From Bacillota bacterium (GTDB lineage Bacteria; Bacillota; Bacilli; Bu12), in assembly GCA_014896485.1 (NCBI GenBank), contig JADBKH010000031.1, positions 1 through 64,000 on the forward strand: a DNA stretch of 64,000 nt, in the 5' to 3' direction. How positions within the stretch are numbered: position 1 is the first letter of the stretch; each line of letters opens with the position of its first letter. A model generated the notes under the pieces. It searched no databases. It had not been told where the DNA came from and saw nothing but the letters and a program-made list of their open reading frames with translations. Below, one piece after another: positions 22,795 through 40,811 of this stretch. Both the position numbers and the translations under genes were made by a program.

Positions 22795-22847
22795 AGTATT
22801 TGGGCCATTGGCCTTTTTGTTGTACTCAGCAGAAGAGGAGGAGAAAG

Positions 22848-24343: not shown

Positions 24344-25855
24344 TTGGCAACCTCGGTGGAAAACGAGCAAGTTATGCCGGCCGTACGTGACTTCATCCGC
24401 AATGGGCCAAAGCGTCTGTTCATTGGTGGAAAGTGGGTTGAATCCCAAGAAGGCAAAACATTCGATGATATCGATCCGGCGACTGGCGAAGGGCTCGCGC
24501 AAGTGTATGAAGCAAAGGAGGCCGATGTCGATCGCGCGGTTGCAGCAGCGCGCCGGGCCTTTGAAGGAACGTGGAGCTCACTGACGTCGGGCGAGCGCGG
24601 CAAGCTGTTGTGGAAACTTGCCGATCTGATGGAAGCACACCAGCTGGAGTTGGCCCAGCTTGAATCGTTGGATACGGGTAAGCCCATCAATGAGGCGATG
24701 ATCGGCGATATTCCGCAAGCCATCAATCACTTTCGCTATTTTGCTGGATGGGCGGGCAAGGTGACGGGTGAGACGCTTACTCCATACGGTCCTTCTCTTC
24801 CCGGAGAGTACCTGGCCTTTACACGTCGCGAACCACTCGGTGTGGTCGGGGCGATCGTACCCTGGAACTTTCCACTGATGATCACGAGCTGGAAAGTGGC
24901 TCCTGCATTGGCTTGTGGCAACACGGTGGTGCTCAAGCCTTCGGAGATGACACCTTTGACTGCCTTACGTTTGGCTGAATTGACACAGGAAGCCGGCTTT
25001 CCGCCTGGGGTCTTCAACGTGTTGCCCGGTTTCGGACAGCCTGCCGGTGCAGCTTTGGCCGACCATATGGGCGTCGACAAGATCTCCTTCACCGGTTCAG
25101 TTGTTGTCGGACGAAGTGTGATGCAGGCGGCAGCGCAGAGCAATTTCAAGCGTGTGACGCTGGAGTTGGGGGGCAAATCGCCCAATATTGTCTTTCCGGA
25201 TGCAGATCTCGACGCAGCGATCAGCGGAGTCATGATGGGTATCTTTTTCAATCAGGGAGAAGTGTGCTGCGCTGGATCACGCCTCTTCTTGCCAAAGTCA
25301 CAATTTGAATCCATGCTGCAGGGATTGGCCGATCGGGCAAAGCAAATTCGCCAAGGTCCTGGGATCTCGCCAATGACGACCATGGGTCCATTGATTTCTG
25401 AAAAACAGATGAACCGAGTTCTGCAGTATATCGAAACCGGAAAGCAAGAGGGGGCACAGGTGGTTTGTGGAGGCGATCGCAATGAAGCGGCTGGCCCTGG
25501 CTACTTTGTGCAGCCAACCATTCTCCTGGGAGAGGATCGGATGACCGTTTCTCAGGAAGAGATCTTTGGACCCGTCTTGGTTGCACTCCCGTACGAGACG
25601 TTTGACGAGGTAATTCAGCGGGCCAACGATACACCTTACGGTTTGGCCGCAGGCATCTGGAGCCGTGATATCAAGACAGCGCTCAAAGCGGCGCACCGCA
25701 TCAAGGCAGGAACGGTCTGGGTCAACGGATACAATGTGCTTGATGCGTCAAGTCCTTGGGGGGGCTTTAAGCAGACAGGAGTTGGGCGAGAGATGGGTTC
25801 GTATGCCCTTGAGCATTATACGGAGGTAAAGAGTGTCTGGGTGAATTTGACCTGA
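24344..25855 (+). CDS. NAD(P)-dependent aldehyde dehydrogenase
   Basis: A 503-residue ALDH-superfamily enzyme that oxidises an aldehyde to a carboxylic acid. Motifs are PWNFPLM, SFTGSVVVGR, the general base Glu in LELGGKSP, and the nucleophile in GEVCCAGSR; the closing PWGGFKQTGVGRE is also present. The start is TTG at 24344 after GGAGGAGGGAAGG. It is the last gene of the operon and ends before a strong hairpin at 25877. Together with the alcohol dehydrogenase it would supply the acid that an acyl-CoA synthetase such as 27105-28676 could activate. Confidence 0.93.
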   Translation: MATSVENEQVMPAVRDFIRNGPKRLFIGGKWVESQEGKTFDDIDPATGEGLAQVYEAKEADVDRAVAAARRAFEGTWSSLTSGERGKLLWKLADLMEAHQLELAQLESLDTGKPINEAMIGDIPQAINHFRYFAGWAGKVTGETLTPYGPSLPGEYLAFTRREPLGVVGAIVPWNFPLMITSWKVAPALACGNTVVLKPSEMTPLTALRLAELTQEAGFPPGVFNVLPGFGQPAGAALADHMGVDKISFTGSVVVGRSVMQAAAQSNFKRVTLELGGKSPNIVFPDADLDAAISGVMMGIFFNQGEVCCAGSRLFLPKSQFESMLQGLADRAKQIRQGPGISPMTTMGPLISEKQMNRVLQYIETGKQEGAQVVCGGDRNEAAGPGYFVQPTILLGEDRMTVSQEEIFGPVLVALPYETFDEVIQRANDTPYGLAAGIWSRDIKTALKAAHRIKAGTVWVNGYNVLDASSPWGGFKQTGVGREMGSYALEHYTEVKSVWVNLT

Positions 25856-25944: not shown

Positions 25945-26871
25945 TTAGGTGGCCGCCTGCTCCATTTCTGCCACTTCGGGTTCGTACTCCTCGGCTGGCA
26001 GACGATAAAGTTCTTCAATTTTCTTGCCACGGGCGCGTTCGATGACAGCCATCCGTCCCTGGAATTTCCGTATGCCATATTGCATAAAATCATTCGGATC
26101 GAATGCAAATGGCGGATTTTCTCCGTAAGATGCAGTCAATTCCGAGATTACGCCTGCGGCGTACTGCATCAGGTAGCTCATGCGATTTTGGATCACCTGA
26201 AAAATACTGTCGTCGACAGCGACGAGTCGGGATAGCAGATAGACCCCGTATGCAATGTGTCTTGACTCATCTGTCGCGATGAGTTGGATAGTTCTTCGAA
26301 ATCCAGGTGCCAAGCCCCGCGGCTCGAGCGCCTTGCGAAACCCGTAATAGCCCGTTTCCGCGAGGACACCTTCTACAATCATATTATACGTGACGGAGGC
26401 TTCAGCTTGAGCAGCAGGAGAGGGATCTGTCAGCAATCGGTGCATGGCTCCAGGCAATTCTTCATAGAATATTTTTTTGTAAGATGGAGTATGATACTGG
26501 CTCAGATCTTCATGACATCCGATGGCATCGAGGAATCGGCGAAATGCCTCGGTATGCTTGGATTCTTCAAAAAGAAAGTCAGTCAAGTACATTTCCTCTT
26601 CTAGGCGCCCTTCTTCCGCCATTGTCTTGACCAGCGGGAGCAGGTCTAAGGTGACGGCTTCTTCGCCAGCTCCAAAAAGCGAGACCAATTGCAACATGGC
26701 GTTTCGCTCTGCTTCTGTGATAGCATTCCAGTCTTTCACGTCTTGTGAATAGTCGATCTCATGAGGGTTCCATGTGCCCAGTCGTTTGCCCTTTTCATAC
26801 AGACGCGCGGGAAGCAGTGTCCAGTCAATTCCCTTGTTGATGGATTGGAAAGAGGTATGGATTTCTGCCAT
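25945..26871 (-). CDS. R2-like ligand-binding oxidase (R2lox), copy 1
   Basis: Ferritin-fold dimetal (Mn/Fe) oxidase related to ribonucleotide reductase R2. All six metal ligands known for the family can be placed: E70 in GAGEEAV, E103 and H106 in FEESKH, E167 in NMIVEGVL, E202 and H205 in DESRH. The Val-Tyr pair that forms the ether cross-link in characterised R2lox is also kept (V73, Y162). R2lox binds a long-chain fatty acid ligand, but its reaction is unknown. The ATG at 26871 gives the usual N-terminus; see the leader hairpin. The promoter carries the shared operator. A second copy lies at 33520. Confidence 0.92.
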   Translation of the reverse strand: MAEIHTSFQSINKGIDWTLLPARLYEKGKRLGTWNPHEIDYSQDVKDWNAITEAERNAMLQLVSLFGAGEEAVTLDLLPLVKTMAEEGRLEEEMYLTDFLFEESKHTEAFRRFLDAIGCHEDLSQYHTPSYKKIFYEELPGAMHRLLTDPSPAAQAEASVTYNMIVEGVLAETGYYGFRKALEPRGLAPGFRRTIQLIATDESRHIAYGVYLLSRLVAVDDSIFQVIQNRMSYLMQYAAGVISELTASYGENPPFAFDPNDFMQYGIRKFQGRMAVIERARGKKIEELYRLPAEEYEPEVAEMEQAAT

Positions 26872-26877
26872 TGATCT

Positions 26878-26895
26878 CGTGCCGCACCGCGGCAC
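26878..26895 (-). promoter_or_regulatory. Hairpin between ribosome site and start of R2lox-1
   Basis: On the minus strand GAGGAGGGA is followed by the perfect stem GTGCCGC-GGT-GCGGCAC and then seven bases later by the ATG at 26871. The ribosome site is 24 bases from that ATG, too far unless the hairpin folds and brings the two together. The alternative is a GTG start at 26895 inside the stem with a very short spacing. Confidence 0.5.
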
Positions 26896-26924: not shown

Positions 26925-26979
26925 AGTACGATAGAGTACTATCTTTGTGGAGTTTACACGTGGGTTATGATACTGTCAA
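26925..26979 (-). promoter_or_regulatory. R2lox-1 promoter with RTACG-N4-CGTAY operator (site 2)
   Basis: Minus strand: TTGACA (26979-26974), 17 bases, TAAACT (26956-26951), then AGTACT-CTAT-CGTACT at 26940-26925. The arms AGTAC/GTACT are perfect. The operator covers the start-point region, so binding should repress. It faces the divergent promoter at 26989. Confidence 0.75.
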
Positions 26980-26988
26980 GACAATTTC

Positions 26989-27044
26989 TTGACACGTCAC
27001 GGAGAAGGTGATATAAAAATCAAAGATTGATACGACATCGTACT
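26989..27044 (+). promoter_or_regulatory. Acyl-CoA synthetase promoter with operator (site 3)
   Basis: TTGACA (26989-26994), 17 bases, TATAAA (27012-27017), then GATACG-ACAT-CGTACT (27029-27044). Near-consensus promoter with the operator at about +5 to +20. With site 2 it forms a divergent regulatory region for R2lox-1 and the acyl-CoA synthetase. Confidence 0.78.
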
Positions 27045-27104
27045 AATTTGAGAAAGCCGGAATTGGAAGTTTTATCTTTTTATTCAACAAGAGGGGCGAG
27101 AGAA

Positions 27105-28676
27105 ATGGCTGTTCGGGACATTTTGCGCAATACCGCTTCACGCTTCCCCGATCGTGAAGCAGTTGTTGCGGCAGATGGCCGTTACCGTTACGACGAGTTG
27201 CAAGATACGAGCTACAAGCTAGCGGGTTTGCTGCAGCAACGGGGCGTGGGAAAAGGGGACAAGATTGCGCTGTGTTTTGCCAATGATGAGGCGGGGAGCT
27301 TTATCCTGTGTTATTTTGCACTCCATTGGATTGGAGCAGTACCCGTGCCAGTCAATTCCCGCTGGGCACCTGATGAGAAGGCATTTGTCGCTGGCCATGC
27401 TCAAGTCAAGGGAGTGGTCAGTGGGGATGCCTATCTCGAACAATGGGAAGAAGGGTTGTCCCATAACGGATGGAAGCTTGATTTAAAGATAGCACGGCAC
27501 GCGACGCGAGAAGGATGGGAGAACTTGGATCAGCTTTTGGCTCAGTCTGCCCCATCCCCTCAGGAACCGCCTATTGACGATGCCGATCTGGCTGATCTGC
27601 TCTACACCTCCGGGACGACAGGACTACCCAAGGGGGTTGCGACTCCAGAAGGAAACTTGCAGATCCGTGCAGGCGATCCAATGGCGGCGGTAGCAGGCCT
27701 CATCTTTTCTGGGCGCATCCTGCACACGGTCCCCCTCTGTGGTTATACAGGGTTACATGGGTGCATGTTGATGAGTATCGAGGCGGGAGGGACGCAGATC
27801 ATTTTGCCTCACTTCGACGCAGGCGAATTCTTGCGGACCATTCCGGAAGAAAAGGTAAGTACGCTGGCTGCGGTACCCTCGATGCTCACGTTGATGATGA
27901 ACCATCCTGATCGCGAAAAGTATGCCTATTCTTCTCTGAAAATCGTCTTCTTCGCCAGTGCCCCTATGCCTCCCGGAACGTTGCGTGAGATGGTGCGCCT
28001 CTGGCCAGGACGGGCCTTGCTCAACGTCTACGGACAGACAGAAGCAGGCGGTGATCTCCTCCTTGTCATGGGTCCCGATCCCAAAGAACATTTGGAGCAC
28101 CTTGGTGCCTTGGGCAAACCAGTACCGGGGTGTGAGGTTGCCATCTTAGACGACAAGGATCAGCCGCTTTCAGAAGGGACAGTGGGTGAAATCTGCCTGC
28201 GCTCAAGCCGTACTCAACGTCATTATTACCGAAACGAGGACGCTGAGAAGCAACTTTGGCGCAATGGTTGGCTACACACAGGGGATGTGGGCTATATCGA
28301 CAAAGACGGCTATGTCCATTTGACCGATCGCAAGAAGGATATGATCATTCGGGGCGGCTACAACATTTTTGCGATAGAGGTTGAAAATGTACTGGATGAG
28401 CATCCAGACGTTGTCGAATCTGCGGTGGTCGGCTTGCCCCACCCAGTTTTGGGAGAAGATGTTGTCGCATTTGTCGTCTTGCGATCGGGCGCGAGCGTGA
28501 CCCCGCAAGCCCTCTATGATTTTTGCCGGCAACGCTTGGCTGATTACAAATGTCCGCGCCATATTCTCTTTGTGGACGCACTACCCCGCAATGCGATGGG
28601 GAAAGTGATCAAAGCAGAGCTGCGGGATCAATACCACGATCTCATTCTCGCAGAGCATGCGAAGCAAGGTGCCTAG
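27105..28676 (+). CDS. Acyl-CoA synthetase (AMP-forming)
   Basis: A 523-residue ANL-superfamily ligase that activates a carboxylic acid as CoA thioester. Motifs: LLYTSGTTGLPKGV (phosphate loop), YGQTEAGG, GWLHTGDVGYIDKDGY, DRKKDMIIRGGYNIF, and the catalytic Lys in PRNAMGKVIK. The ATG at 27105 with GAGGGGCGAGAG upstream is chosen; an apparent upstream TTG start would lie inside the operator at 27029-27044. It is divergent from R2lox-1 and co-regulated with it, so it may act on the same lipid pathway. It is a different subgroup from the ligase at 4111-5655. Confidence 0.92.
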   Translation: MAVRDILRNTASRFPDREAVVAADGRYRYDELQDTSYKLAGLLQQRGVGKGDKIALCFANDEAGSFILCYFALHWIGAVPVPVNSRWAPDEKAFVAGHAQVKGVVSGDAYLEQWEEGLSHNGWKLDLKIARHATREGWENLDQLLAQSAPSPQEPPIDDADLADLLYTSGTTGLPKGVATPEGNLQIRAGDPMAAVAGLIFSGRILHTVPLCGYTGLHGCMLMSIEAGGTQIILPHFDAGEFLRTIPEEKVSTLAAVPSMLTLMMNHPDREKYAYSSLKIVFFASAPMPPGTLREMVRLWPGRALLNVYGQTEAGGDLLLVMGPDPKEHLEHLGALGKPVPGCEVAILDDKDQPLSEGTVGEICLRSSRTQRHYYRNEDAEKQLWRNGWLHTGDVGYIDKDGYVHLTDRKKDMIIRGGYNIFAIEVENVLDEHPDVVESAVVGLPHPVLGEDVVAFVVLRSGASVTPQALYDFCRQRLADYKCPRHILFVDALPRNAMGKVIKAELRDQYHDLILAEHAKQGA

Positions 28677-28796: not shown

Positions 28797-29108
28797 ATGG
28801 CTACGTTAGAAGAAACATTGCAGCAGGTTGAAAAGCGATTGGAAGGAAAAAACTTTGCTGGCTCTGATGGGGTCTATCAATTTGACATAGAAGGTGCGGG
28901 ATCCTACCAGTTGGTAGTCCAAGATGGTCAAGCCAAAGTCATATCACCCCCAACAGAGCGTGCTGGGGTAACCATTAAGATGAACGCGGAGAATTTTCAA
29001 AAGATGATCAGCGGTGAACAAAATCCGACGGCCATGTTTATGGCAGGGCAGCTGCAGATCGAAGGCGATATGATGATGGCGATGAAACTGCAGTCGCTCT
29101 TGGCGTAG
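28797..29108 (+). CDS. SCP2 sterol-carrier-like lipid-binding protein
   Basis: A 103-residue SCP2 protein, clearly paralogous to 22370-22687: VYQFDIEGAGSYQLVV, VTIKMNAENFQKM and NPTAMFMAGQLQIEGDMMMAMKLQ. The Met-rich C-terminal helix would line the hydrophobic tunnel. It is 120 bases after the acyl-CoA synthetase on the same strand with GGGAGAGGAGC before the ATG. It probably shares the transcript and carries substrate or product for the ligase, by inference. Confidence 0.87.
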   Translation: MATLEETLQQVEKRLEGKNFAGSDGVYQFDIEGAGSYQLVVQDGQAKVISPPTERAGVTIKMNAENFQKMISGEQNPTAMFMAGQLQIEGDMMMAMKLQSLLA

Positions 29109-29245: not shown

Positions 29246-29265
29246 CTTCATACATTGTATATAAG
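29246..29265. promoter_or_regulatory. Imperfect palindrome at the TetR gene start, candidate own operator
   Basis: CTTCATACATTGTATATAAG is an imperfect dyad around ATACATTGTAT, directly before the ribosome site AGAAGGG of the TetR gene. It shares the half-site CATTGTA with the perfect repeat at the 3' end of the same gene (29895-29914), which suggests self-control. It does not match the RTACG-N4-CGTAY class. Confidence 0.4.
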
Positions 29266-29275
29266 AAGGGATAAC

Positions 29276-29914
29276 TTGCAAAGTTTATATGAAATCCTCG
29301 ACTTGGATCGGTACTGTCAAACGTTTGCGGAGCGCAAGTTGGTTGCCGCAACGCTTGAGCTGCTGGAAGAACGGCCTTTCAATGAGATTTCTGTTCTCGA
29401 TATTGTCGAACGATCCCACCAATCCAAGACGAGTTTCTACAATCTATTTGAAAACAAAGAAGCACTCGCAGTCTTCCTGTTTGATATTGTTGCGCGTGCG
29501 GTGTGGGAGAAGATGGCCAGGGCGATCGATGCAGAACCGCAGTGGCGGGAAAAGCCCCGTGCTGCTGTCCGGACTTATGTCGATCTTTGCCTAAGTTATC
29601 CGCGGACTGCTCGTTTTTTGATCATCGATTCGGCTGGCGGAATTACTGCGTTGGATCAGTCTCGCTTAAATGCGCATGCAGCCTTTGCACAGCTGGTCGC
29701 ATCACGGTTGGGTTTCGAGCATCAAGACGAGAAGACACTCCATCTGTTATCGACCGCCATTGTCGGCGCAGCCAACGAAGTAGTCATCGATGCACTGCTG
29801 CGCAGTGAGAAAGGGAAGATCGATCGGGAGGCAGAAGCTGCCCGTTTGATCAATTTTTTACATCACGTGATTCTACAATTGTCCGTCTCCTTTGTTACAA
29901 TGCAAACATTGTAA
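29276..29914 (+). CDS. TetR/AcrR-family transcriptional regulator
   Basis: A 212-residue regulator with an N-terminal helix-turn-helix: RKLVAATLELLEERPFNEISVLDIVERSHQSKTSFYNLFENKEAL, in which TSFYNLF fills the TTFYRHF position. The C-terminal 150 residues are helical and would bind a ligand. The TTG at 29276 is chosen because AGAAGGG lies five bases upstream. It sits in the middle of the lipid-related regulon and is the only TetR gene in the window, so it is a candidate for the factor binding the RTACG-N4-CGTAY sites, but its own flanks carry a different dyad. Confidence 0.9.
   Translation: MQSLYEILDLDRYCQTFAERKLVAATLELLEERPFNEISVLDIVERSHQSKTSFYNLFENKEALAVFLFDIVARAVWEKMARAIDAEPQWREKPRAAVRTYVDLCLSYPRTARFLIIDSAGGITALDQSRLNAHAAFAQLVASRLGFEHQDEKTLHLLSTAIVGAANEVVIDALLRSEKGKIDREAEAARLINFLHHVILQLSVSFVTMQTL
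29895..29914. promoter_or_regulatory. Perfect 8+4+8 inverted repeat across the TetR stop codon
   Basis: TTACAATG-CAAA-CATTGTAA is a perfect 20-base dyad whose last three bases are the TAA stop. The spacing of four bases resembles a TetR operator. An alternative is a weak AT-rich RNA hairpin. Confidence 0.45.
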
Positions 29915-30005: not shown

Positions 30006-31853
30006 TTACTGCTGTAGCAAGGAAAATGCTTCTTTTAGCGCATTGTCCGTGACAGCAGCTGGGCCACCTGCCACCATCAGATTGGCATGACTGAGGTACT
30101 GACTCTGTAGAAATGCAGCCGATTCAGCTGGCAAAGTATCTGTGTCATTGCTCAACACTGTAGCTGCATGATGGGCCGCAGCATACGGCGCTGCTGTAAG
30201 GGCATCGATCATATGAGCATCGACACCGTCGGCTAAGACCACTTCCGGATACCCCTCTTGTGGAGCAAACTTGGTGTTTACGGCAACAGCGGTCGCGTAG
30301 CGGTTTTGTCCCGTTATGGGGGTTACCTGGCCGGGAAGCGTTAACCCATAGTTCGCTGCCGCCCCAATGACGTACTCTTTCTGGCCAGACCCCAAGTAAC
30401 GCGCTTCATCGTCAGAGAGCGTGCCTTTACCTGAGGCAAGCAAGATCGGAGCTACCTGCTGTGCAGCAAACGGACTGGCCACGATTGCATCGACCATATG
30501 GCTGTCTTCTTCTGGCGCAATAAAGGCTGAGGAAAAGCTCGTCTTGCCGGTTACTGCAGCAAGCTCTTCCGCGATGAGCGCTGCTGTCGCCTCTCGGTTT
30601 TTCCCTTGCAGGGAGATCACGCGGGCACTTCCAGGAAGCGCCGCTTTCACGGCATCACTGTTGGCCGCTCCTAACAAGACGATCGATTGGGGTTGTAACC
30701 GTGTCAACTCAGCCAGGGTGTTGCTGTCAAGGGTCACTTGGCCCTTGCTGTACTCTGTCGCCAAAAGAATCGGAGCGTTTAATGCTGAAGCGAGCGGACC
30801 AGCAGGAAGCGCGTCGATTAAATGCCAGGCACTGCCGTCTACAATCACTACGTTATTGGCCCCGTTGGGATAAAGCTTTTTGGAGATGTAAGCAGCGGTT
30901 TGCATCCGGTTCTGCCCACCCAAGCGAAGCGAAGACTGAGGGGGCATCTGCGGCTGCGTGGCTACAGCTTCAAGCTGTCCCAATTGAAGCGAGACGCCGC
31001 CAAAAAGAATGGGAAGCAGTTTCACGTTTAAGCCCGAGTAACTGGCGCCAATGACTTGACCGCTGCTATCTGTGATCGGCGTTGTTTTTCCGAGTGAGAT
31101 CTCGCCGACAAGCGGTACGTTGATGCTGTTTCCCGGAAGTAGCGTATGTTCGCTGCCGCCGATCTGCAGGATAGCAGCACCGGTGTTATCTGTGACATGT
31201 ACCTGGCCGGAAGGGTCATGAGTGACCGTGATCTTGGGCTCCCAATCCAAGATCTTCACTGCCCCATCCAACAAGGAAACACCCCCGAGCTGTAAACCGG
31301 CTTGGGTGTAACCTGGTTGTGCAAGGGTATCCGAGCCGATCCGCCCAATGCTGAGCAAGCTCAGCAAGTTGATGGAGGCTACTGTGCTTGATGCATTTGC
31401 TTGGGGCGTACCATCCTGCAGCTTATCTGCATCTGCACTCGCATTGAGCAAGCCTAAAGAGATGCCCAAGAGGCTGAAATTAGGAAGGCCCTTCTGCTTG
31501 GTCCCACCCGGCGGCAGCTGGGAAGTTGCCTCTACTGGAGCTGTTAAGTCACCAGTGAGCAGCTTCACACGAAGTGCTGAGCCATTGCCTAACCCTGTGC
31601 CGTTGGAATCAACGCCTGCAGAGCTATAGCCGGCATCTAGACCCAACAGGATCTTTTCCAAGGCACCTACATGAAGCACATCCGCAGTCGCATAATTCGG
31701 ATAGCCGTTTACCTCTACTTGCGCCGCGAGACTTGTCGTCGTAAGCGGAGCACTAGGTTCAGCTGCGTGTACAGCGGGCAGACCAAAGGTTGCGGCTCCG
31801 ACTGCAAATACGGTCACGGCACCGATCAGGTGCCCTTTGCGGTGAGGTTTCAT
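30006..31853 (-). CDS. Exported protein with three cell-wall-binding type 2 (CWB2) repeats
   Basis: A 615-residue secreted protein. A signal peptide covers about residues 8-30 (GAVTVFAVGAATFGLPAVHAA). The C-terminal half has three CWB2 repeats, each with a GxNRxxTA block and a DALxAxPxAA block (LGGQNRMQTAAYI, LQGKNREATAALI, ITGQNRYATAVAV), which anchor proteins to wall polymers. The N-terminal half is a Gly/Leu-rich beta-type region (GLGNGSALRVKLLTG, LLGISLGLLNASADAD) of unknown function. Its promoter carries the shared operator, which puts this surface protein in the lipid-related regulon. A ribosome site AGAAAGGAGC precedes the ATG. Confidence 0.85.
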   Translation of the reverse strand: MKPHRKGHLIGAVTVFAVGAATFGLPAVHAAEPSAPLTTTSLAAQVEVNGYPNYATADVLHVGALEKILLGLDAGYSSAGVDSNGTGLGNGSALRVKLLTGDLTAPVEATSQLPPGGTKQKGLPNFSLLGISLGLLNASADADKLQDGTPQANASSTVASINLLSLLSIGRIGSDTLAQPGYTQAGLQLGGVSLLDGAVKILDWEPKITVTHDPSGQVHVTDNTGAAILQIGGSEHTLLPGNSINVPLVGEISLGKTTPITDSSGQVIGASYSGLNVKLLPILFGGVSLQLGQLEAVATQPQMPPQSSLRLGGQNRMQTAAYISKKLYPNGANNVVIVDGSAWHLIDALPAGPLASALNAPILLATEYSKGQVTLDSNTLAELTRLQPQSIVLLGAANSDAVKAALPGSARVISLQGKNREATAALIAEELAAVTGKTSFSSAFIAPEEDSHMVDAIVASPFAAQQVAPILLASGKGTLSDDEARYLGSGQKEYVIGAAANYGLTLPGQVTPITGQNRYATAVAVNTKFAPQEGYPEVVLADGVDAHMIDALTAAPYAAAHHAATVLSNDTDTLPAESAAFLQSQYLSHANLMVAGGPAAVTDNALKEAFSLLQQ

Positions 31854-31894
31854 GGACTATGCTCCTTTCTAGTGAGAATCGCCGGAAAAATACT

Positions 31895-31954
31895 AATACG
31901 TATCAGTATGATTACGGCGAATCTTAAAATACACACTTGCTCTAATCTTGTCAA
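31895..31954 (-). promoter_or_regulatory. CWB2-protein promoter with operator (site 4)
   Basis: Minus strand: TTGACA (31954-31949), 17 bases, TATTTT (31931-31926), then CATACT-GATA-CGTATT (31910-31895). The CGTATT arm matches exactly, the other arm has one change. Same architecture as sites 1-8. Confidence 0.7.
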
Positions 31955-32019: not shown

Positions 32020-32066
32020 TTGACAATAGAGTCGATACTGCTCTAGGATTGATACGTTATCGTATC
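32020..32066 (+). promoter_or_regulatory. SDR promoter with perfect operator (site 5)
   Basis: TTGACA (32020-32025), 18 bases, TAGGAT (32044-32049), then GATACG-TTAT-CGTATC (32051-32066), a perfect 6+4+6 dyad starting one base after the -10 box. Confidence 0.8.
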
Positions 32067-32096
32067 TACCCTTGGGTAACAGTGGGAGGCGTATGT

Positions 32097-32939
32097 GTGG
32101 GCAGTTGGGATGCATTGCTTTCTGGAAAAGTTGCGATTGTAACAGGTGGATCACGCGGCATCGGACGCCAAGATGCACTGGCGTTGGCCGAAGCCGGTGC
32201 AGATGTGGTGATCACGGACATTTTGCTTGAAAGCGACGAAGGCAGTGCTCAGGCAGCCCAACAGTACGGGCCGCTGGAACAGGTGATGGTAAGCGGCAAA
32301 GTGGTCTACGCAGAAAAGACGGCCAAAGAAATTGAGGCGATGGGCAGACGCGCCTTGGCCATAAAGATGGATGTGACCGATCGGGAGCAGATTGCCGAGA
32401 CATTTCGGTTGGTGGAAGCGCAATTCGGCCACATCGACATTCTGGTCAACAATGCCGGAATGCTGGATCATGTTGCCCAGATCGAACAGCAGAATGACGC
32501 TTTTTGGGAGCGCGATCTCAAAGTAAACCTGACGGGTACCTACAACTGCACCAAAGCGGTTTGGCCCTATATGCGCCAACAGGGGTGGGGACGCATCATC
32601 AACATGTCCTCCGTTGCGGGCACCTTGGGTGGATTTGGCCAGGCCAGCTACAGCGCGACCAAGGGAGGTATCCTCAGCTTCACCAAATCCATGGCACTGG
32701 AAGGTGCACGACTGGGCATTAACGTCAATGCGATCGTGCCCGGTATTATCGCGACCGAAGCCTGGAAGATGGGCAATCCCAAAATGAATGAGCGGATGGT
32801 TCAGCGTACCGCTTTCCATCGCCCTGGCGATCCTGAAGATGTTGCCAACGCCATCGTCTTTCTTTGTTCCGAAAAAGCAAAGTATATCACCGGCGTAGGA
32901 CTGCCCGTTTCCGGTGGGATCGAGCTTTTCACCTTCTGA
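32097..32939 (+). CDS. Short-chain dehydrogenase/reductase (FabG-like, extended insert)
   Basis: A 280-residue SDR oxidoreductase. The cofactor motif is TGGSRGIG, with NNAG, the catalytic Ser in NMSSVAG and YSATKGG (YxxxK). Asp at the end of beta-2 (VVITDILL) points to NAD rather than NADP. An insert of about 35 residues after beta-2 makes it longer than FabG (about 245) and resembles dehydrogenases acting on larger hydrophobic substrates. The GTG at 32097 has GGGAGG seven bases upstream; an apparent earlier TTG would lie inside the operator. First gene of an operator-controlled pair with 32955-33383. Confidence 0.9.
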   Translation: MGSWDALLSGKVAIVTGGSRGIGRQDALALAEAGADVVITDILLESDEGSAQAAQQYGPLEQVMVSGKVVYAEKTAKEIEAMGRRALAIKMDVTDREQIAETFRLVEAQFGHIDILVNNAGMLDHVAQIEQQNDAFWERDLKVNLTGTYNCTKAVWPYMRQQGWGRIINMSSVAGTLGGFGQASYSATKGGILSFTKSMALEGARLGINVNAIVPGIIATEAWKMGNPKMNERMVQRTAFHRPGDPEDVANAIVFLCSEKAKYITGVGLPVSGGIELFTF

Positions 32940-33413: not shown

Positions 33414-33458
33414 TTGACTCTACTAGAAGAACATAGTAGGATAGTACGTGGTTGTATC
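33414..33458 (+). promoter_or_regulatory. R2lox-2 promoter with operator (site 6)
   Basis: TTGACT (33414-33419), 17 bases, TAGGAT (33437-33442), then AGTACG-TGGT-TGTATC (33443-33458). The -10 box and the immediate junction to the operator are the same as at site 5. Confidence 0.75.
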
Positions 33459-33519: not shown

Positions 33520-34443
33520 ATGCCGCAAGGAGTGGCCGTTCAAGCACAGCGAACGTATACCTCGGTCAGTGGACGGGGTATTGACTGGGGACTGATGCCC
33601 GCTAGGCTCTTTTCGAAAGGTAAGAGGCTCTATTGGGATCCGGAGAAGATCTCGTTTGAACAGGATAAGGTGGATTGGAAAAAACTCAATGAAGATGAGC
33701 AGGATATGATTCTCAGGCTGACATCCCTCTTTGGAGCTGGGGAGGAAGCGGTGACGCTTGACCTGCTGCCATTGGTCAATGTGATGGCACAGGAAGGTCG
33801 GTTGGAAGAGGAAATGTACCTCACTCAGTTTCTGTTCGAAGAGGCAAAACACACGGAAGCATTTCGCCGTTTCTTGGACAGCATCGACTGTCACGAAGAT
33901 CTGCATCGCTATCATACTGGAAGCTATCAGACGGTTTTCTATGAAGCACTTCCCCAGGCGATGGGCCGTCTCAACCAAGACCCATCTCCTGCCGCACAGG
34001 CCGAGGCTTCAGTGACGTATAACATGATCGTCGAAGGGGTGCTTGCTGAGACAGGATACCATGCGTGGCGGTCGATTCTAGAGTCGCGTGGGTTGATGCC
34101 TGGTGTCCAGGAGATCATCAGCAAAATTGCGACTGACGAATCGAGGCATATCGCCTACGGTGTCTATCTGCTGTCTCGGCTGATTGCGGTGGACGATGAG
34201 ATTTATGGCGTGGTTCAGAAGAAGATGAGCGACTTAATGGTGCCTTCGACGGGGGTGATTAACGATTTACTCGGTGCTTATGCGGGAAAAGAGGTACCCT
34301 TTGGATTATCCCCTGATGACTTTGTTAACTTTGCGATTCGCAAGTTTCAAGGGCGTATGGCAGTGATCGAACGCGCCCGCGGCAAAGCGGTCGACGAACT
34401 TTACCGGGCGCCGATCGAGACATTTGAAGAAGCAGACGCGTGA
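33520..34443 (+). CDS. R2-like ligand-binding oxidase (R2lox), copy 2
   Basis: A 307-residue paralogue of 25945-26871. Metal ligands align as E75, E108 (FEEAKH), H111, E172, E207 and H210 (DESRH), and the cross-link pair as V78 and Y167, so it should build the same Mn/Fe cofactor. The two copies share long identical blocks (GAGEEAVTLDLLPL, AEASVTYNMIVEGVLAETGY). The residues lining the ligand channel differ in places, so they may act on different chains or form a pair. The ATG at 33520 follows GGGAGG at 11 bases. A terminator follows at 34501. Confidence 0.92.
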   Translation: MPQGVAVQAQRTYTSVSGRGIDWGLMPARLFSKGKRLYWDPEKISFEQDKVDWKKLNEDEQDMILRLTSLFGAGEEAVTLDLLPLVNVMAQEGRLEEEMYLTQFLFEEAKHTEAFRRFLDSIDCHEDLHRYHTGSYQTVFYEALPQAMGRLNQDPSPAAQAEASVTYNMIVEGVLAETGYHAWRSILESRGLMPGVQEIISKIATDESRHIAYGVYLLSRLIAVDDEIYGVVQKKMSDLMVPSTGVINDLLGAYAGKEVPFGLSPDDFVNFAIRKFQGRMAVIERARGKAVDELYRAPIETFEEADA

Positions 34444-34567: not shown

Positions 34568-34610
34568 TTGCATCAAGTAGTATATAAGATCTATAATACG
34601 AAAACGTATT
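34568..34610 (+). promoter_or_regulatory. ABC1-kinase-like gene promoter with perfect operator (site 7)
   Basis: TTGCAT (34568-34573), 18 bases, TATAAT (34592-34597), overlapped by AATACG-AAAA-CGTATT (34595-34610), a perfect 6+4+6 dyad. Confidence 0.78.
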
Positions 34611-34672: not shown

Positions 34673-36382
34673 ATGGCAGTGGCATTGCCGATTCAACAAG
34701 AGGTCTACCACATCGACGCAAGAGATCTGACGCCTGCCAAGCGTCGCAATCTCATCGTGCGTACCTTCACAAAGTATGGGTTAACCTTGGTTTTTCGAGA
34801 CGGTGGATTGGCAATCTTTCGCAATGGTGGTGTGAATCTTTCAGAGGATCAACAAGCCCGTCTTGGCACGAATATCCGTCGATGTTTCGAGGAGTTGGGA
34901 CCCACCTTTATCAAGCTCGGTCAAGTGTTGGCGACGCGGTCGGATTTCTTGCCGGAATTCATCTGTGACGAACTGACCCTGTTGTTGGATGCCATTCCTC
35001 CTGCGCCCTTTGGTGAAGTGGCTGCGGTCCTTGAGGCGGAGTTGCCGGATGGCATGCGTACTTTCCGCCGGCTGGATCCGCAGCCGCTCGGTTCAGCGTC
35101 GCTGGCTTGCGTCTACAAAGCTGAACTACGGGACGGACGACCGTGTGCCGTAAAAGTTGTGCGACCCAATGTAGAGAAACTGTTTCAGACCGATATCGCG
35201 CTTATTAAGGGTTGGGTGAGGCGTTTGTCCAAACTCCTGCCCCCCCCTTTGGCGGCAGCGTTTGATCTGAACGGATTGCTGGATGACTACTATTCTTCCA
35301 GCTTGGCTGAGACCGATATGCGTCAGGAAGCCCAGCACATGGAAGATCATCGTGCATATATGGCGGAGTACGACCATTTGCGTGTGCCGGAAGTCTATCT
35401 CAAGCCGACGAAAAATGTACTTGTACAAGAGCTGGTGGATGGATGGAGCATTAAGGAGTTTCCTGTCGATTTCTTGACTTTGGAAGATCGTGCCATGTTG
35501 ATGAACGAAGCGGCACATTATTACATTAAGACGATCATGGAAGGGTATTATCATGCCGATTTTCATGCCTCGAACCTTCTGGTCGGTCGAGCTAAACAAC
35601 TTTATGCCATTGATTGGGGCATGGTTGGGCATGTTGACACCAATCTGACTGAGAACATCTTGAAACTGGTTAGTTACGTGTTCACCAATCGCATCAGTGA
35701 AGCGGCCGAAGTGGCTCTGCAGGTGATGCGGCCTACTGAGTACACGGATATGCAGGATTTCAAGCAGCAGTTTGTGACCCACGCAGAGAAGTACGCATGG
35801 AATGTCCAAGGAGATACCAAAGCCAACTGGGGTACGATGGTGATGGAGTTCATTCAGGTGGCCGCTGCTCATTACTGTAAGGTTCCCTCCGGGCTGGCGC
35901 TGTGGGCAAAAGGATGGTCGGCGACGGAGGCCGTGGCGCGCTGGTTGCTTCCCGAGTACAGTTATGCCCGGTCGGTAGAAACGTTTGATACCAATCTTCT
36001 CGAAATCTTCCTGCAGCATCATCTCAGTTTTCGTACCAACGGTTTCGCCATTTTCGATGTCGTGAAGATGCTTACGGCACTGCCCCAGCGCGTCGATGTC
36101 ATTACTGAACAGTTGGCGGATGGCACATTGACACTACAGACCGAACATCGTTTGACCCAGGCAACGGCACGTACCGTCAACACAGCGATTAATCGCGTTG
36201 TACTCGCCGCAATTGTCTGTGCCTTGTTGATAACGAGCGGGCTTTTTGCCATTGCAATGAAAGGGACAGCCCACACAGTGGCGTGGATCTGGATTGGCAG
36301 TGCCGCAACCGTTTGCGCGGTTGCTGGGGCTGTTTTGGGCATATGGACCCTGTGGCGTTTGCGACGATCGTCAAAAACGTAA
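34673..36382 (+). CDS. ABC1/UbiB-family atypical kinase-like protein
   Basis: A 569-residue AarF/UbiB/ADCK-type protein. Family motifs are FIKLGQVLATRSDFLP (the KxGQ block), GSASLACVYKAEL in place of the Ala-rich loop, AVKVV (Lys), YHADFHASNLLV (catalytic loop) and IDWGMVG (DFG equivalent). Two membrane segments close the C-terminus (VVLAAIVCALLITSGLFAI and a second). These ATPases support metabolism or movement of quinones and other isoprenoid lipids. CAGGAGGGGAAG precedes the ATG. It is under the shared operator; the stop region has a tandem repeat. Confidence 0.9.
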   Translation: MAVALPIQQEVYHIDARDLTPAKRRNLIVRTFTKYGLTLVFRDGGLAIFRNGGVNLSEDQQARLGTNIRRCFEELGPTFIKLGQVLATRSDFLPEFICDELTLLLDAIPPAPFGEVAAVLEAELPDGMRTFRRLDPQPLGSASLACVYKAELRDGRPCAVKVVRPNVEKLFQTDIALIKGWVRRLSKLLPPPLAAAFDLNGLLDDYYSSSLAETDMRQEAQHMEDHRAYMAEYDHLRVPEVYLKPTKNVLVQELVDGWSIKEFPVDFLTLEDRAMLMNEAAHYYIKTIMEGYYHADFHASNLLVGRAKQLYAIDWGMVGHVDTNLTENILKLVSYVFTNRISEAAEVALQVMRPTEYTDMQDFKQQFVTHAEKYAWNVQGDTKANWGTMVMEFIQVAAAHYCKVPSGLALWAKGWSATEAVARWLLPEYSYARSVETFDTNLLEIFLQHHLSFRTNGFAIFDVVKMLTALPQRVDVITEQLADGTLTLQTEHRLTQATARTVNTAINRVVLAAIVCALLITSGLFAIAMKGTAHTVAWIWIGSAATVCAVAGAVLGIWTLWRLRRSSKT

Positions 36383-36403
36383 GACGATCGTCAAAAACGT
36401 AAG
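36364..36403. repeat. Perfect tandem duplication of 20 bases at the stop of the kinase-like gene
   Basis: The unit ACGATCGTCAAAAACGTAAG occurs twice in a row (36364-36383, 36384-36403). The first copy includes the TAA stop, the second lies in the untranslated part. A recent slippage-type duplication; the downstream copy does not extend the protein. Confidence 0.9.
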
Positions 36404-36468
36404 TAGGGTAGTTAGGAAATGTACGTGAAATGTACGTGCGTATCGAGGTGGGGGAGGAGAAAGGGCCA

Positions 36469-36984
36469 ATGGAAAATAGGGCACAGGTTCAGACAGTAGC
36501 ATCGACGCTGAATCTTCCGGAAGTCACCGGACCCGACCGTGCCAAAGAGGAGAAGCAGAAAGAGAAGGCAGAGATCGCAGCACGGATTCAAGCGCTCTAT
36601 GAACGCAGTGGGGGGCCGACCAAAGCCGCTGAAAAGATTGAGCATGTGATCCGGGAGCATTTGAAGTATGGGAGAGATCACGGCGAATCAGGGCGTATCG
36701 AAACCTACGACAATGTCATTCGGCGTTTCCTCAATACGGATCGCAGTTGGTCTGGTTTTGTCAAGGAAGGGCAAAAGGCGGGTGCCCTCCTAATGAATTT
36801 TGCCAGTCAATTTATCCCGCGCCCTGATCCAGGTATCGAACATGTGGCCAAAGAGCTGCATGACCTAAATGAGACGCTCTCGACCTTTGTTACCATGCAG
36901 GAACGGATGGCGCGTCTGGAAGCCAAGCTGGATCTGGTTTTGCGGCAACGCAGTGAACTTAGAGATGGAGGCGGGCGGGGATGA
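36469..36984 (+). CDS. Hypothetical coiled-coil protein
   Basis: A 171-residue soluble protein, charged and helical: a Lys/Glu-rich N-terminus (AKEEKQKEKAEIAARIQALY), a central EHVIREHLKYGRDHGESGRIETYD, and a C-terminal leucine-heptad coil (MARLEAKLDLVL). No family recognised. GGGGAGGAGAAAGG precedes the ATG. Its end overlaps the start of the next gene by four bases, so the two are translationally coupled and likely work together. Confidence 0.65.
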   Translation: MENRAQVQTVASTLNLPEVTGPDRAKEEKQKEKAEIAARIQALYERSGGPTKAAEKIEHVIREHLKYGRDHGESGRIETYDNVIRRFLNTDRSWSGFVKEGQKAGALLMNFASQFIPRPDPGIEHVAKELHDLNETLSTFVTMQERMARLEAKLDLVLRQRSELRDGGGRG

Positions 36985-38030
36985 AGCATCCTCGTGCTTT
37001 CCGTGTGTTCCTGCTGGGCAGTGTAGCGGCCTGGGCGGTGGTAAGCGGCACGTGGCCGGCTGTTGCCGCCACGCCAGGAAAGAACTCCCTTTCGTCGATG
37101 GCCCATCCTTTGGGAACGCGCTTTACGTCGTGGGTGGATGAGCTCCCCTTCTTTGGTAGTGGCGGGATACAGGAGCCCTCCGGGAGCGTTGATCCATCCG
37201 GGGATAACTCGATAAGCCCTGAACCCGTGCCAGTGCCACTTCCTGAACAGCCGCCGGTTGTAGCGCAACCGCATGATCCGACGGTTTTACCGGATCCCCC
37301 TGCGCAGCAATCGCCTTCTGCCAGCTCACCTTCGCCGGTTTCCTCTCACCCGATGGCGTCAGGCGATGCGAATGCGACACCAGAAACGGCCTTGCCTGTT
37401 TCTTCTGGCAGCCGAGAAACTGTGTCAACAGCGCAACAGGCCGTCCTGCAGTCTGGACCGATGGCGACAACGCCGGCTGCTCCGATGACGCAACCATCTA
37501 GTCCTGTTTCGTCTGCGCAGACCAATGAAATGCCTGCTTCATTCTCCTCACAAATGACGGTGACGCAGCTTCAGCGCCTCCCCAAAGCTCAGTTGACCAA
37601 GCAGATGGATCAGCAAGCGCAACAAGTGGCCCAAAACGTCAACCTAGCTGGAATCAAAGCGCCTATCGAAGTACAAGCCGAGCGACTCGACGGTACCCAT
37701 GCACACATGTCACTGGCACTGTCGCCCACACTGAGTCTGGAGCACGCGACACTGAGCAACTTGAAGATTATCTATCAAGCTGATAACGGAGCGAAGATAG
37801 TCATTGAAGTGCCGCAGGCGCAGGCAGAAAACCTGATTATCCAATCTTCTCTGCTTTACTACGTGCCTACTGCACTGAAAATGCTCAATACGCCACTGTC
37901 CTTGTTGGCCCTGTTACTTGGAAACGAGGTGAATCACCTTTCACTCTCTAACGTAAGCTTAAAAGTAAGTCAGTTTATATCTGCGGGTTCCATGGATTCT
38001 AACGGGTTGAGTTTGAGCATTGGGCAGTGA
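36981..38030 (+). CDS. Exported Pro/Ser-rich protein with beta-type C-terminal domain
   Basis: A 349-residue protein with a signal peptide (FLLGSVAAWAVVSGTWPAVAA), then about 150 residues rich in Pro, Ser and Gln that look like a wall-spanning linker, and a C-terminal domain of strand-like repeats (LAGIKAPIEVQAERLDG, ATLSNLKIIYQ, LSLSNVSLKVSQFISAGSM). The repeat style recalls the DUF6230-like protein encoded next. No sortase motif at the end. Probably a surface protein of the same lipid-linked system, by context. Confidence 0.7.
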   Translation: MKHPRAFRVFLLGSVAAWAVVSGTWPAVAATPGKNSLSSMAHPLGTRFTSWVDELPFFGSGGIQEPSGSVDPSGDNSISPEPVPVPLPEQPPVVAQPHDPTVLPDPPAQQSPSASSPSPVSSHPMASGDANATPETALPVSSGSRETVSTAQQAVLQSGPMATTPAAPMTQPSSPVSSAQTNEMPASFSSQMTVTQLQRLPKAQLTKQMDQQAQQVAQNVNLAGIKAPIEVQAERLDGTHAHMSLALSPTLSLEHATLSNLKIIYQADNGAKIVIEVPQAQAENLIIQSSLLYYVPTALKMLNTPLSLLALLLGNEVNHLSLSNVSLKVSQFISAGSMDSNGLSLSIGQ

Positions 38031-38178
38031 TGTCCATGTGGGGCACTGTTTTGAATTTCCTGCGAGCAAGGACTTTGGAAAAAATGAAGGGAGGTGAGCG
38101 TGATGAAATGAGTGTGAGAAAAGGGAAAAGTTGAGTCCGCTGAATATAAAAAGTGATTTTGAAAGGAGAGGAAGGATC

Positions 38179-38748
38179 GTGGCCACAGTGCTTTCTACCC
38201 CTGAGCGTGTGATGGTGGCTCCTATCTATGGTAGGACCAATCGAATGCGCTTCTGGGTCGTACTGTTCGCTGGTTTGGTGATTCTTGGAGGAATTCTCGC
38301 AGCGGTTTCGAGGGGAGCTGTGGCAATGGCGGCAACGATACCGCTGCCCCTCGATATCAGGGTGACCAATCTGACTGGGACAAATTTCATGCTGGTACCT
38401 GGGACTGCCAAAGGAACAGGCGCACCGACCGGGGTGGGGAACTTAACCGGCGATTTAAAAGGATTGTCCATCTCTAAATCGCTGGGAATTGCAGGCCATG
38501 ATGTAACCTTGAACATCACCACGGGTCCGGGAAGCGTTGCCCATGCTACCGGTTTGACTCTGGATCTTGATTCGTTGAACAGCAGTGGTGCAACTTTCAG
38601 CGGCCTGAGTTTCGCCACAGGGGGCCAAAACGGCTTATCGCTGGGAGCGAACCAGATTGTGCTAGACAATGGCGTCATTCACTCGCCCTTTTTGATGGCC
38701 AACAGCATTACGCTGCCAGGACTAGGCTTGTCATTCACCCTCAAATGA
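38179..38748 (+). CDS. Membrane-anchored/exported DUF6230-like protein
   Basis: A 189-residue protein beginning with GRTNRMRFWVVLFAG and one hydrophobic signal-anchor (LVILGGILAAVSRGAVAMAA), then a strand-rich exported domain with LTGTNFMLVPG. This matches the layout of DUF6230 proteins, common in actinobacteria where they neighbour DUF6114 proteins and are sometimes loosely labelled cholesterol esterase. A DUF6114 protein is encoded 1.1 kb away on the other strand. The GTG at 38179 follows AAAGGAGAGGAAGG. Function unknown. Confidence 0.65.
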   Translation: MATVLSTPERVMVAPIYGRTNRMRFWVVLFAGLVILGGILAAVSRGAVAMAATIPLPLDIRVTNLTGTNFMLVPGTAKGTGAPTGVGNLTGDLKGLSISKSLGIAGHDVTLNITTGPGSVAHATGLTLDLDSLNSSGATFSGLSFATGGQNGLSLGANQIVLDNGVIHSPFLMANSITLPGLGLSFTLK

Positions 38749-38850: not shown

Positions 38851-39777
38851 TTATGCCGGCTTTTCGGCGCGAATAATGCCATATCGCCACAGATCGTTGC
38901 GAAAAGCTCTGTACTGTGCAAAACAAGCTTTGTAGTTCTCCCACTCGTGGTTGACGAATTGACCCAATATGTGCCCGGTAATAGCAGGAACGGTGGTGAG
39001 CAGCGCCATGTGGTGGAGTCTTTTGACGCTAGGGGCAACATATGCGCTGTGATCGCTGGCTTGCACTTGCTCAAAGCCTGTATCCTCGATCATACGACGC
39101 ATCTCGGTTAAAGTCGTGAAATGTGTTACCCAACCCCGGTTCCATTGGCGGATCCAACGCTCTTCTGTTGAAGAAAAAGTATGCTTTGTCAGTAGAAAGT
39201 CGCTCATCAGCAAAATGCCGCCCGGTCTGAGCAGCCGAAAGGCTTCTTCGCAAAAGCGCCGTTTGTCAAGGGCATGACAAAGCGATTCAATAGCCCAAAC
39301 TTGATCAAAAGAGTCATCGGGAAAAGAAGTGTTGCAGTAATCTTCCACATAAAATGAAACGGAATCTTCTAGATGCAGCCGCCTGCAGTTTGCGTTGGCC
39401 TGTGTGATCTGATCTTCAACAATGTTGATACCCACTACTGGACCACCGTGGTGGCGAGCGAGCCAAACAGCCGTTCCACCCACCCCACAGCCGGCATCTA
39501 AGATAGACGCATTCTTTGTGGCCCCGCTGATCTCGTAGAGTTTCTCGTTGAGGCGAAGCAATGCCTTCTGATGGCTGTGAACCCCCCGATCCCAGTACCC
39601 GTAATGATAAGCGAGCGTCTCATCATTAAACCAGAGTAAGCGATAGTCGCGCAGTGTTTGGCGGTAATATGCGCGTATTGCTTCGTAATCGTCGGCTTGA
39701 ATCACTTCTGATGGGGGATGCACCAATAAACGTGTCGCTGTGGTCTCCCTTTCATCGGGTTCGGGCGCAGTGGGCAT
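38851..39777 (-). CDS. SAM-dependent methyltransferase (sterol/isoprenoid methyltransferase-like)
   Basis: A 308-residue class I methyltransferase. The SAM motif is ILDAGCGVGGTAVWLA near residue 94, with VWAIESLCHALDK and LRPGGILLMSDF later. The opening YHYGYWDRGVHSHQKALLRLNEKL resembles sterol C-24, tocopherol and geranyl-diphosphate methyltransferases, which act on isoprenoid lipids. GAAGGAGGGATCCC precedes the ATG. It follows the SCP2-DUF6114 gene by 36 bases on the same strand, so it belongs to the operator-controlled transcript from 40811. Confidence 0.82.
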   Translation of the reverse strand: MPTAPEPDERETTATRLLVHPPSEVIQADDYEAIRAYYRQTLRDYRLLWFNDETLAYHYGYWDRGVHSHQKALLRLNEKLYEISGATKNASILDAGCGVGGTAVWLARHHGGPVVGINIVEDQITQANANCRRLHLEDSVSFYVEDYCNTSFPDDSFDQVWAIESLCHALDKRRFCEEAFRLLRPGGILLMSDFLLTKHTFSSTEERWIRQWNRGWVTHFTTLTEMRRMIEDTGFEQVQASDHSAYVAPSVKRLHHMALLTTVPAITGHILGQFVNHEWENYKACFAQYRAFRNDLWRYGIIRAEKPA

Positions 39778-39813: not shown

Positions 39814-40749
39814 TTACACTTTGCGAACCGCCTTGCCTACCTGCGGTGCCGCTTGCCACCCTTGTTCTGCAGGACGCATCACGGGTGTCCAGGCGACGCC
39901 CAAAGCACCTCCGACCAAGCCGAATAGCAGACCGACGACGAGTCCTCCCATCGACGTGATCAAGGAGACGAGTGCTAAAACGATCGTGATGCCGCCGACA
40001 AGGGTGCTGTAATAAGGGGTTAGAAGCTGGGCCAATCCCATGACGATGAGCAGCCCTCCTACTATCAGGCCTTCCCAGAGATTGCTGCCCGGAAGTAAAG
40101 CGAATTGAAGGAAGGATGCTGGCCCAACCACGACAAAGATTCCACTGAGCAGGGTAAGAATACCGGCATAGAAAGGTCGTGTATGGCGCCAACGCCAGAA
40201 CCTGCTGTTTGCTTCCTGAGTTTCGTCTGCTGCAGGCGTCTCTGTGGTGCGCTCCTGCACCCTAGCAGCGGCAGCTTCGCTGGACCCTTGTGGATTCGTA
40301 GCTGAAACCGCAGAGGTGCTTTTCACAACTGGAAGGGCTGTTTTGGAGTGACGGTGACGCTTTCCTGGAGGCTGTAGGAGAGTCAAGCGCCTACCTATTT
40401 CACCTATCACAGCGGAGAGAAGGGGAGCCCAAATGACCACATCTGCCACTTGAGCGCCATCCACTTTGATCTGACCGGTGGTCAGCAGGGAAGTGATCTC
40501 GGCGCTACCCCTGCTTGCGAGCTGCCAAGTCGTCTCGGGTGCATGCAGGACGTAGACAGGGGTATCTGGTTCGGGAGCGGGAGTATAGAGTGCCCAAGTA
40601 TCCTCGATCCGCAGGTAGAGTGGGCTGGCATCGTCGATGCTGAAGCCGAAGGTCACGCTTTCCGTTGTGCTGTCATTGAGGCGTATCGGTTGTTGGATCG
40701 CTTCAAGCCAATGCTCTTGCGGGGTGGATTGTTGTTCGGTACGCGCCAT
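39814..40749 (-). CDS. SCP2-like domain fused to a DUF6114 membrane domain
   Basis: A 311-residue protein. Residues about 25-115 look like an SCP2 lipid-binding domain (ESVTFGFSIDDASPLYLRIED, TPVYVLHAPETTWQLASRG, ITSLLTTGQIKVDGAQV in place of FMAGRxxxEGD). A Ser/Ala/Thr linker follows. Residues about 190-295 form the DUF6114 core, opening with RPFYAGILTLLSG, then three or four membrane segments and the closing LVGGALGVAWTP. DUF6114 proteins in actinobacteria accompany DUF6230 proteins. The fusion suggests the membrane domain handles an SCP2 ligand. First gene of an operator-controlled operon. Confidence 0.75.
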   Translation of the reverse strand: MARTEQQSTPQEHWLEAIQQPIRLNDSTTESVTFGFSIDDASPLYLRIEDTWALYTPAPEPDTPVYVLHAPETTWQLASRGSAEITSLLTTGQIKVDGAQVADVVIWAPLLSAVIGEIGRRLTLLQPPGKRHRHSKTALPVVKSTSAVSATNPQGSSEAAAARVQERTTETPAADETQEANSRFWRWRHTRPFYAGILTLLSGIFVVVGPASFLQFALLPGSNLWEGLIVGGLLIVMGLAQLLTPYYSTLVGGITIVLALVSLITSMGGLVVGLLFGLVGGALGVAWTPVMRPAEQGWQAAPQVGKAVRKV

Positions 40750-40769
40750 TTTTTACCTCCTATAATACC

Positions 40770-40811
40770 GATACGTACCAGTATTAAAACACAAAGACCC
40801 TGTTTTTGCAA
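40770..40811 (-). promoter_or_regulatory. SCP2-DUF6114 operon promoter with operator (site 8)
   Basis: Minus strand: TTGCAA (40811-40806), 17 bases, TTTAAT (40788-40783), overlapped by AATACT-GGTA-CGTATC (40785-40770). The CGTATC arm is exact, the other has one change. Same architecture as sites 1-7. Confidence 0.72.

Follow-up and report, generated by a model that had tools for sequence, protein, structure and literature searches.

A predicted SCP2-like-DUF6114 fusion protein in an R2lox gene cluster of a Bacilli genome

The window analyzed here, 64,000 bp at the start of contig JADBKH010000031.1 of a Bacillota bacterium (class Bacilli; assembly GCA_014896485.1), contains a gene (bp 39814-40749, minus strand) whose 311 amino acid product joins an SCP2-like N-terminal domain to a DUF6114 membrane domain. 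We lean toward a reading in which this fusion protein is a membrane-anchored lipid carrier, with a cytosolic SCP2-like domain, a flexible linker and a four-helix DUF6114 domain, that would serve an alkane-type gene module.

The fusion ORF is a real gene. It is uninterrupted, has exactly the boundaries given above, and translates to 311 amino acids from an ATG codon that lies 5 nt downstream of the Shine-Dalgarno sequence AGGAGGT (bp 40755-40761, minus strand). There is no sign of a frameshift or chimera artifact, since the reading frame is unbroken, the N-terminal and DUF6114 parts are similar in GC content by codon position, and both lie in one contig. The SCP2-like domain comprises residues 8-114 (bp 40408-40728); a reading of the sequence places a charged low-complexity linker at residues 126-183 (bp 40201-40374), and the DUF6114 domain occupies residues 184-288 (bp 39886-40200; all on the minus strand). 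After the linker, the first TM segment is preceded by an arginine-rich stretch that lacks acidic residues, NSRFWRWRHTRP (residues 181-192, including SRFWRWRHTRP), and by the positive-inside rule the N-terminus of the protein is therefore predicted to be on the cytosolic side of the membrane. A gene for a CMAS/Methyltransf_11-type SAM methyltransferase (profile match; bp 38851-39777, minus strand) lies 36 nt downstream of the fusion gene and is probably co-transcribed with it.

That the C-terminal part belongs to DUF6114 (PF19609), as the original prediction had it, is now certain. The match spans the whole model (positions 1-106 of 106; residues 184-288) with E=8e-25 and 88 bits, far above the gathering cut-off of 27.9, and the RPF, GG and AW positions of the family are kept. 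Hydropathy and alignment with relatives indicate about four TM segments, probably four TM helices. A whole-genome search found no second DUF6114 gene in this genome, and no plasmid match was found for the family, which is indeed common in Streptomyces, in keeping with the earlier description of it as best known from actinobacteria. A number of DUF6114 proteins elsewhere are longer than the domain itself. One group from Bacilli (L038-L043) has a long hydrophobic N-terminal part, apparently several extra TM helices, and Alicyclobacillus ORFs (L026-L030) have low-complexity N-terminal extensions of 160-280 residues with recurring motifs (TPTQIVRGDPLRLP), although their real starts are uncertain. 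Three actinobacterial ORFs (L119:9968-11104, L144:2170-3738 and L147:9974-11359) are extended at the C-terminus, apparently by an extra TM helix and an extracellular beta-rich domain.

The N-terminal part had been recognized as SCP2 by eye, and profile searches of both parts had been proposed; that for DUF6114 was decisive (E=8e-25), and that for SCP2 was sub-threshold. Pfam SCP2 (PF02036) aligns residues 33-98 with positions 23-88 of its 101-position model at E=0.17 and 12.6 bits, below the cut-off of 21.3 bits, and the domain is consequently named only SCP2-like here. The score in a single-genome SCP2 search is 15.1 bits, still below the Pfam gathering cut-off. In the whole genome such a search finds four places, all in the window, of which the fusion domain is the fourth and last, behind three true SCP2 genes. 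The reading by eye gains support from alignment: MAFFT places residues 8-114 against two SCP2 proteins of the window and three of Alicyclobacillus with small gaps only, about 105 residues in register, and G81, G92 and G98 of the fusion are invariant columns in the six-sequence alignment. The conserved glycine block of SCP2 before the last helix (GklxixGD) is present, but it lacks the FMAG part and the final Asp. The segment TTGQIKVDGA (residues 90-99) aligns in register with the FMAGQLQIEGD block of the window SCP2 protein at bp 28797-29108, which bears out the view that GQIKVDG stands in place of the MAGRxxxEG-type block. We trained a local SCP2 HMM on 26 SCP2 proteins taken from this genome and from its class; with it, residues 1-135 obtain 7.1 bits (per-sequence E=3e-4), and 20,000 shuffles gave no score as high. 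When 1,448 protein segments of neighboring loci were scored, only SCP2 or SCP2-like ORFs exceeded the fusion domain, and one of these (L043:2064-2489) itself has no Pfam SCP2 match. Comparison of the fusion domain with SCP2 by hhalign gave a probability of 35% and P=4e-4 over 85 columns in full register, above 500 of 500 shuffles; four of 500 decoy segments outscore it, and these come from three ORFs, one SCP2 (two overlapping segments) and two SCP2-like.

It might be argued that the N-terminus is an unrelated small alpha+beta domain (for example, regulatory or adaptor) that resembles SCP2, and that only the DUF6114 part is meaningful. The sub-threshold Pfam score agrees with such a view, as does the performance of the full-length protein with the local HMM, which is much less distinct and barely above noise (4.8 bits versus 4.2 for the next ORF). 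The domain is also an orphan: no homolog of it rises above background in 399 genomes of the class, none was found among PLSDB plasmids or by sequence in the PDB, and searches of IMG/VR viral contigs and GTDB contigs with the full fusion protein found none, so that the SCP2 reading has no evolutionary depth. Among 104 DUF6114 ORFs an SCP2 signal is present only in the fusion of the window, and the fusion is thus limited to one lineage. We nevertheless regard an unrelated domain as improbable, given the outcomes of the shuffle, decoy and hhalign tests, the near-gapless register over about 105 residues, and the linkage of SCP2 genes to DUF6114 across many genomes (below), which provides a prior for SCP2.

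The structure test proposed originally, on residues 25-115, was informative only in part. AlphaFold2 without an alignment gave a pLDDT of 36, and a fold search with this unguided model returned no match, which is again what an unrelated domain could give. With five SCP2 sequences as the alignment the pLDDT was 73 and the pTM 0.63, and the first 29 PDB matches of the guided model (E<=0.001) are all SCP2 proteins or SCP2-type alkylsulfatase C-domains, among them UbiJ-SCP2, AF1534 and Yarrowia SCP2. Because its alignment consisted of SCP2 sequences, the guided model is not independent proof; it is a threading test rather than an independent prediction, and it indicates that the fusion sequence is compatible with the SCP2 fold. 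(A mixed SCP2 and DUF6114 alignment, in which MAFFT placed the SCP2 rows on the membrane part, was discarded.) On the basis of the alignment with the window SCP2 proteins, the shuffles, the SCP2-guided model and the genome context, the N-terminus probably has the SCP2 fold.

The fusion gene is preceded by an operator-like inverted repeat, GATACGTACCAGTATT (bp 40770-40785). This is one of eight sites of a 16 bp inverted repeat (DRTACGNNNNHGTAYH) in the window, versus 0.13 expected in shuffles, a chance estimate that is optimistic because the pattern was drawn from some of the same sites. The pattern RRTACG-N4-hGTAYY, which replaced an initial 20 bp pattern, covers all eight (a looser form is DRTACGN4HGTAYH), and matches elsewhere in the 2.17-Mb genome are scattered singles. 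From left to right, the remaining seven sites lie before the genes for SCP2-like protein b, a zinc alcohol dehydrogenase (ADH) and an aldehyde dehydrogenase (ALDH) (site at bp 22785-22800; genes at 22845-23273, E=3.2e-6, 23277-24317 and 24344-25855, the latter two by profile match; all plus strand); before R2-like ligand-binding oxidase (R2lox) gene 1 (site 26925-26940; gene 25945-26895, minus strand, PF00268, with R2lox relatives in other loci); before an acyl-CoA ligase (AMP-binding; profile match) and free-standing SCP2 protein c (site 27029-27044; genes 27027-28676 and 28797-29108, both plus strand, the latter with E=4.5e-23); before a CWB2 cell-wall-binding surface protein with three CWB2 repeats (site 31889-31904; gene 30006-31853, minus strand, profile match); at the start of a short-chain dehydrogenase (SDR) gene (site 32051-32066; gene 32049-32939, plus strand, profile match); before R2lox gene 2 (site 33443-33458; gene 33520-34443, plus strand, NCBIfam NF006202, E=1e-108, above cut-off); and before a run of plus-strand genes from ABC1 to DUF6230 (site 34595-34610). 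Another free-standing SCP2 protein, a, is encoded farther left (bp 22349-22687, plus strand, E=1.7e-18). The eight repeats mark out about 18 kb as a local regulon. A TetR-family regulator gene lies mid-way (bp 29255-29914, plus strand, E=6.4e-9), whose product is a candidate reader of these sites, and the site before the CWB2 protein suggests that the regulon includes a cell-surface part. The earlier proposal that the fusion shares a regulon with SCP2 carriers thus holds at the sequence level, the motif being common to SCP2, R2lox and ABC1 genes.

The run of genes behind the last of these sites encodes an ABC1/UbiB-like atypical kinase (bp 34673-36382, E=1.1e-44), a small helical protein that looks PhaP-like by eye (bp 36430-36984; no Pfam match, a conserved neighbor of ABC1), an unnamed secreted or anchored protein with a C-terminal beta-rich domain (bp 36981-38030; no Pfam match) and a DUF6230 protein (bp 38131-38748; Pfam E=1.3e-7, local HMM 7e-59). 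The unnamed secreted family recurs beside DUF6230 in Bacilli and Ktedonobacteria (other members are L103:11458-12252, L110:11485-12264 and L101:11203-11715). The kinase, SCP2 and small helical protein (bp 34673-36984 and 28797-29108) recall the UbiB, UbiJ and UbiK set of ubiquinone synthesis, where the SCP2 domain of UbiJ helps organize the Ubi complex with UbiB and UbiK (PMC6747719). The presence of a UbiB-like kinase makes a scaffold of this type the main rival to a carrier: the N-terminus would have the SCP2 fold but, in the manner of UbiJ, would serve as a docking or scaffold domain that holds R2lox, ABC1 and the helical protein at DUF6114, and carry nothing itself. In favor of this, the cluster contains comparable components, the best fold matches include UbiJ-SCP2 structures, and UbiJ, besides binding intermediates, gives structure to a multiprotein complex (PMC6747719). 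On the other hand, ABC1 and SCP2 are common families and Pfam does not match the helical protein to UbiK, and we consider a pure scaffold rather unlikely.

DUF6114 was found in 21 of 121 genomes (20 besides that of the window). Fifteen relatives have DUF6114 as well as SCP2, and in 12 of them the distance from DUF6114 to an SCP2 gene is 1.4-10.5 kb, a linkage with P of about 4e-21 under random placement, or 7e-7 when counted by families (4 of 7). Searches with the window proteins (phmmer) showed a repeated set of R2lox, ADH, ALDH, SCP2, ABC1, the small helical protein, DUF6230 and DUF6114; in the Bacilli neighborhoods none of the matches was to the methyltransferase at bp 38851-39777. DUF6230 adjoins DUF6114 in 20 of 20 Bacilli loci and in 77 of 80 wider loci from Alicyclobacillus, Geobacillus, Thermogemmatispora, Ktedonobacter and actinobacteria (mostly Streptomyces); of the three loci that depart from this, two are contig ends. 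In Thermogemmatispora a distant R2lox gene lies beside the DUF6230-DUF6114 pair. No R2lox or SCP2 neighbors were detected for the Streptomyces pairs, and the general role of the pair may therefore be broader than alkanes.

The near-constant partner DUF6230 provides a stronger clue to function than the one offered by the original prediction, which missed it. Kato et al. (2009) described P21 and P16, two Geobacillus thermoleovorans B23 membrane proteins that are induced by long-chain alkanes but by neither palmitic acid nor triglycerides; they sequenced peptides, reported the proteins as signal-anchored on the outside, and were unsuccessful in attempts to disrupt them (PMC2676291). All four P21 peptides match a 201 amino acid protein (L043:5575-6180; one of them exactly) encoded between R2lox and DUF6114, and the P16 N-terminus matches two proteins (L112:9363-9953 and L033:80-694) whose genes each lie 14-17 nt before a DUF6114 gene. 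All three are DUF6230 proteins by Pfam. Thus, the alkane-inducible P21 and P16 are DUF6230 proteins encoded beside DUF6114, and P21 is also encoded beside R2lox. P21 corresponds to GK2770, in the cluster of the Geobacillus R2lox GK2771 that was reported in 2024 to be a Mn/Fe alkane monooxygenase (PMC10867098). The link between DUF6230/DUF6114 and the R2lox clusters is made by the present analysis; the available text of the earlier alkane papers does not mention DUF6114, SCP2 or ABC1. In the window, R2lox, ADH, ALDH and acyl-CoA ligase genes occur along with a gene for a P21/P16-type DUF6230 protein. Clusters of R2lox, ADH, ALDH, acyl-CoA ligase, SCP2 and ABC1 genes most likely oxidize long-chain alkanes or similar hydrophobic chains. 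The suggestion that DUF6114 is a lipid-related membrane module is well supported by genome context, which ties it to hydrophobic-substrate metabolism, and it can be narrowed to alkane-type substrates; the SCP2 part of the suggestion is probable but sub-threshold.

The methyltransferase directly downstream in the operon of the fusion gene could instead indicate that the module exports or deposits an envelope lipid (a wax, triterpenoid or other) modified by this CMAS-type enzyme, and does not take up alkanes. Streptomyces pairs with no R2lox detected nearby and an extracellular DUF6230 protein would suit such a role. This too appears improbable, since P21 and P16 respond to alkanes rather than to palmitic acid or triglycerides (PMC2676291), the cluster is dominated by alkane-oxidation enzymes, and the methyltransferase is not part of the matched Bacilli set.

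If the fusion protein is a membrane-anchored carrier, DUF6230, a signal-anchored extracellular beta-rich protein, and related surface proteins would gather or bind the hydrophobic substrate outside the cell, and DUF6114 would take it over within the membrane. The fused SCP2-like pocket would then pick it up at the cytosolic face and pass it to R2lox and the subsequent enzymes (ADH, ALDH and acyl-CoA ligase), while the free SCP2 proteins would act as soluble carriers; the ligand, the direction of transport and the order of transfer are what we infer here. By the classical gene-fusion argument, the joining in one protein of an SCP2-like carrier and DUF6114, which are linked separate genes in relatives, suggests that the two act together. 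A more tentative possibility is that DUF6230-DUF6114 is a dedicated hydrocarbon-acquisition system of monoderms that feeds R2lox, in which case the fusion would display its cytosolic hand-over to an SCP2-like carrier.

DUF6114 and DUF6230 are widespread (more than 100 loci in Streptomyces, Ktedonobacteria and Bacilli in the present searches), and the paper library searched contained no literature on DUF6114, one incidental paper on DUF6230, and no function for either. The single domains are known; judged from the same library, both their combination and the placing of DUF6230/DUF6114 in R2lox clusters appear to be new. Taken together, the fusion, the common operator motif and the finding that P21/P16 are DUF6230 proteins lead to a testable proposal: in monoderms, long hydrophobic chains would pass through the envelope by a route that serves R2lox. 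If true, it would give names to two families of unknown function and add an uptake step to R2lox alkane oxidation.

Compared with known systems, the fusion resembles SCP2 domain proteins (PF02036, including UbiJ and UbiT) in its predicted order of helix, four strands, helices, strand and helix and in its glycine-anchored G-x-[IL]-[KQ]-[VI]-x-G block, but it differs from them in its sub-cut-off score, in having LTTG instead of FMAG, and in being membrane-tethered rather than free. It resembles the DUF6114 (PF19609)/DUF6230 (PF19741) system in having a DUF6230 gene nearby, as in almost all relatives, whereas the extra N-terminal SCP2-like domain sets it apart from the 103 other DUF6114 ORFs. The arrangement in the window is unusual in that DUF6230 is on the opposite strand, convergent with the fusion gene and parted from it by the methyltransferase gene, while elsewhere the two are directly adjacent. 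The DUF6114 proteins of Gandjariella (L119), Planosporangium (L144) and an actinomycete MAG (L147) likewise carry an additional domain from this system; theirs is C-terminal and apparently outside, and that of the fusion is N-terminal and a predicted cytosolic carrier. Finally, the window is like the Geobacillus kaustophilus R2lox cluster GK2769-GK2782 in its R2lox, ADH, ALDH, acyl-CoA ligase and P21-type DUF6230 genes (PMC10867098; for P21/P16, PMC2676291). DUF6230, DUF6114, SCP2 and ABC1 are not named as members of that cluster in the available portions of these two papers, and in comparison with the cluster as described there the window differs in its two R2lox genes, its four SCP2 or SCP2-like domains, and the fusion itself.
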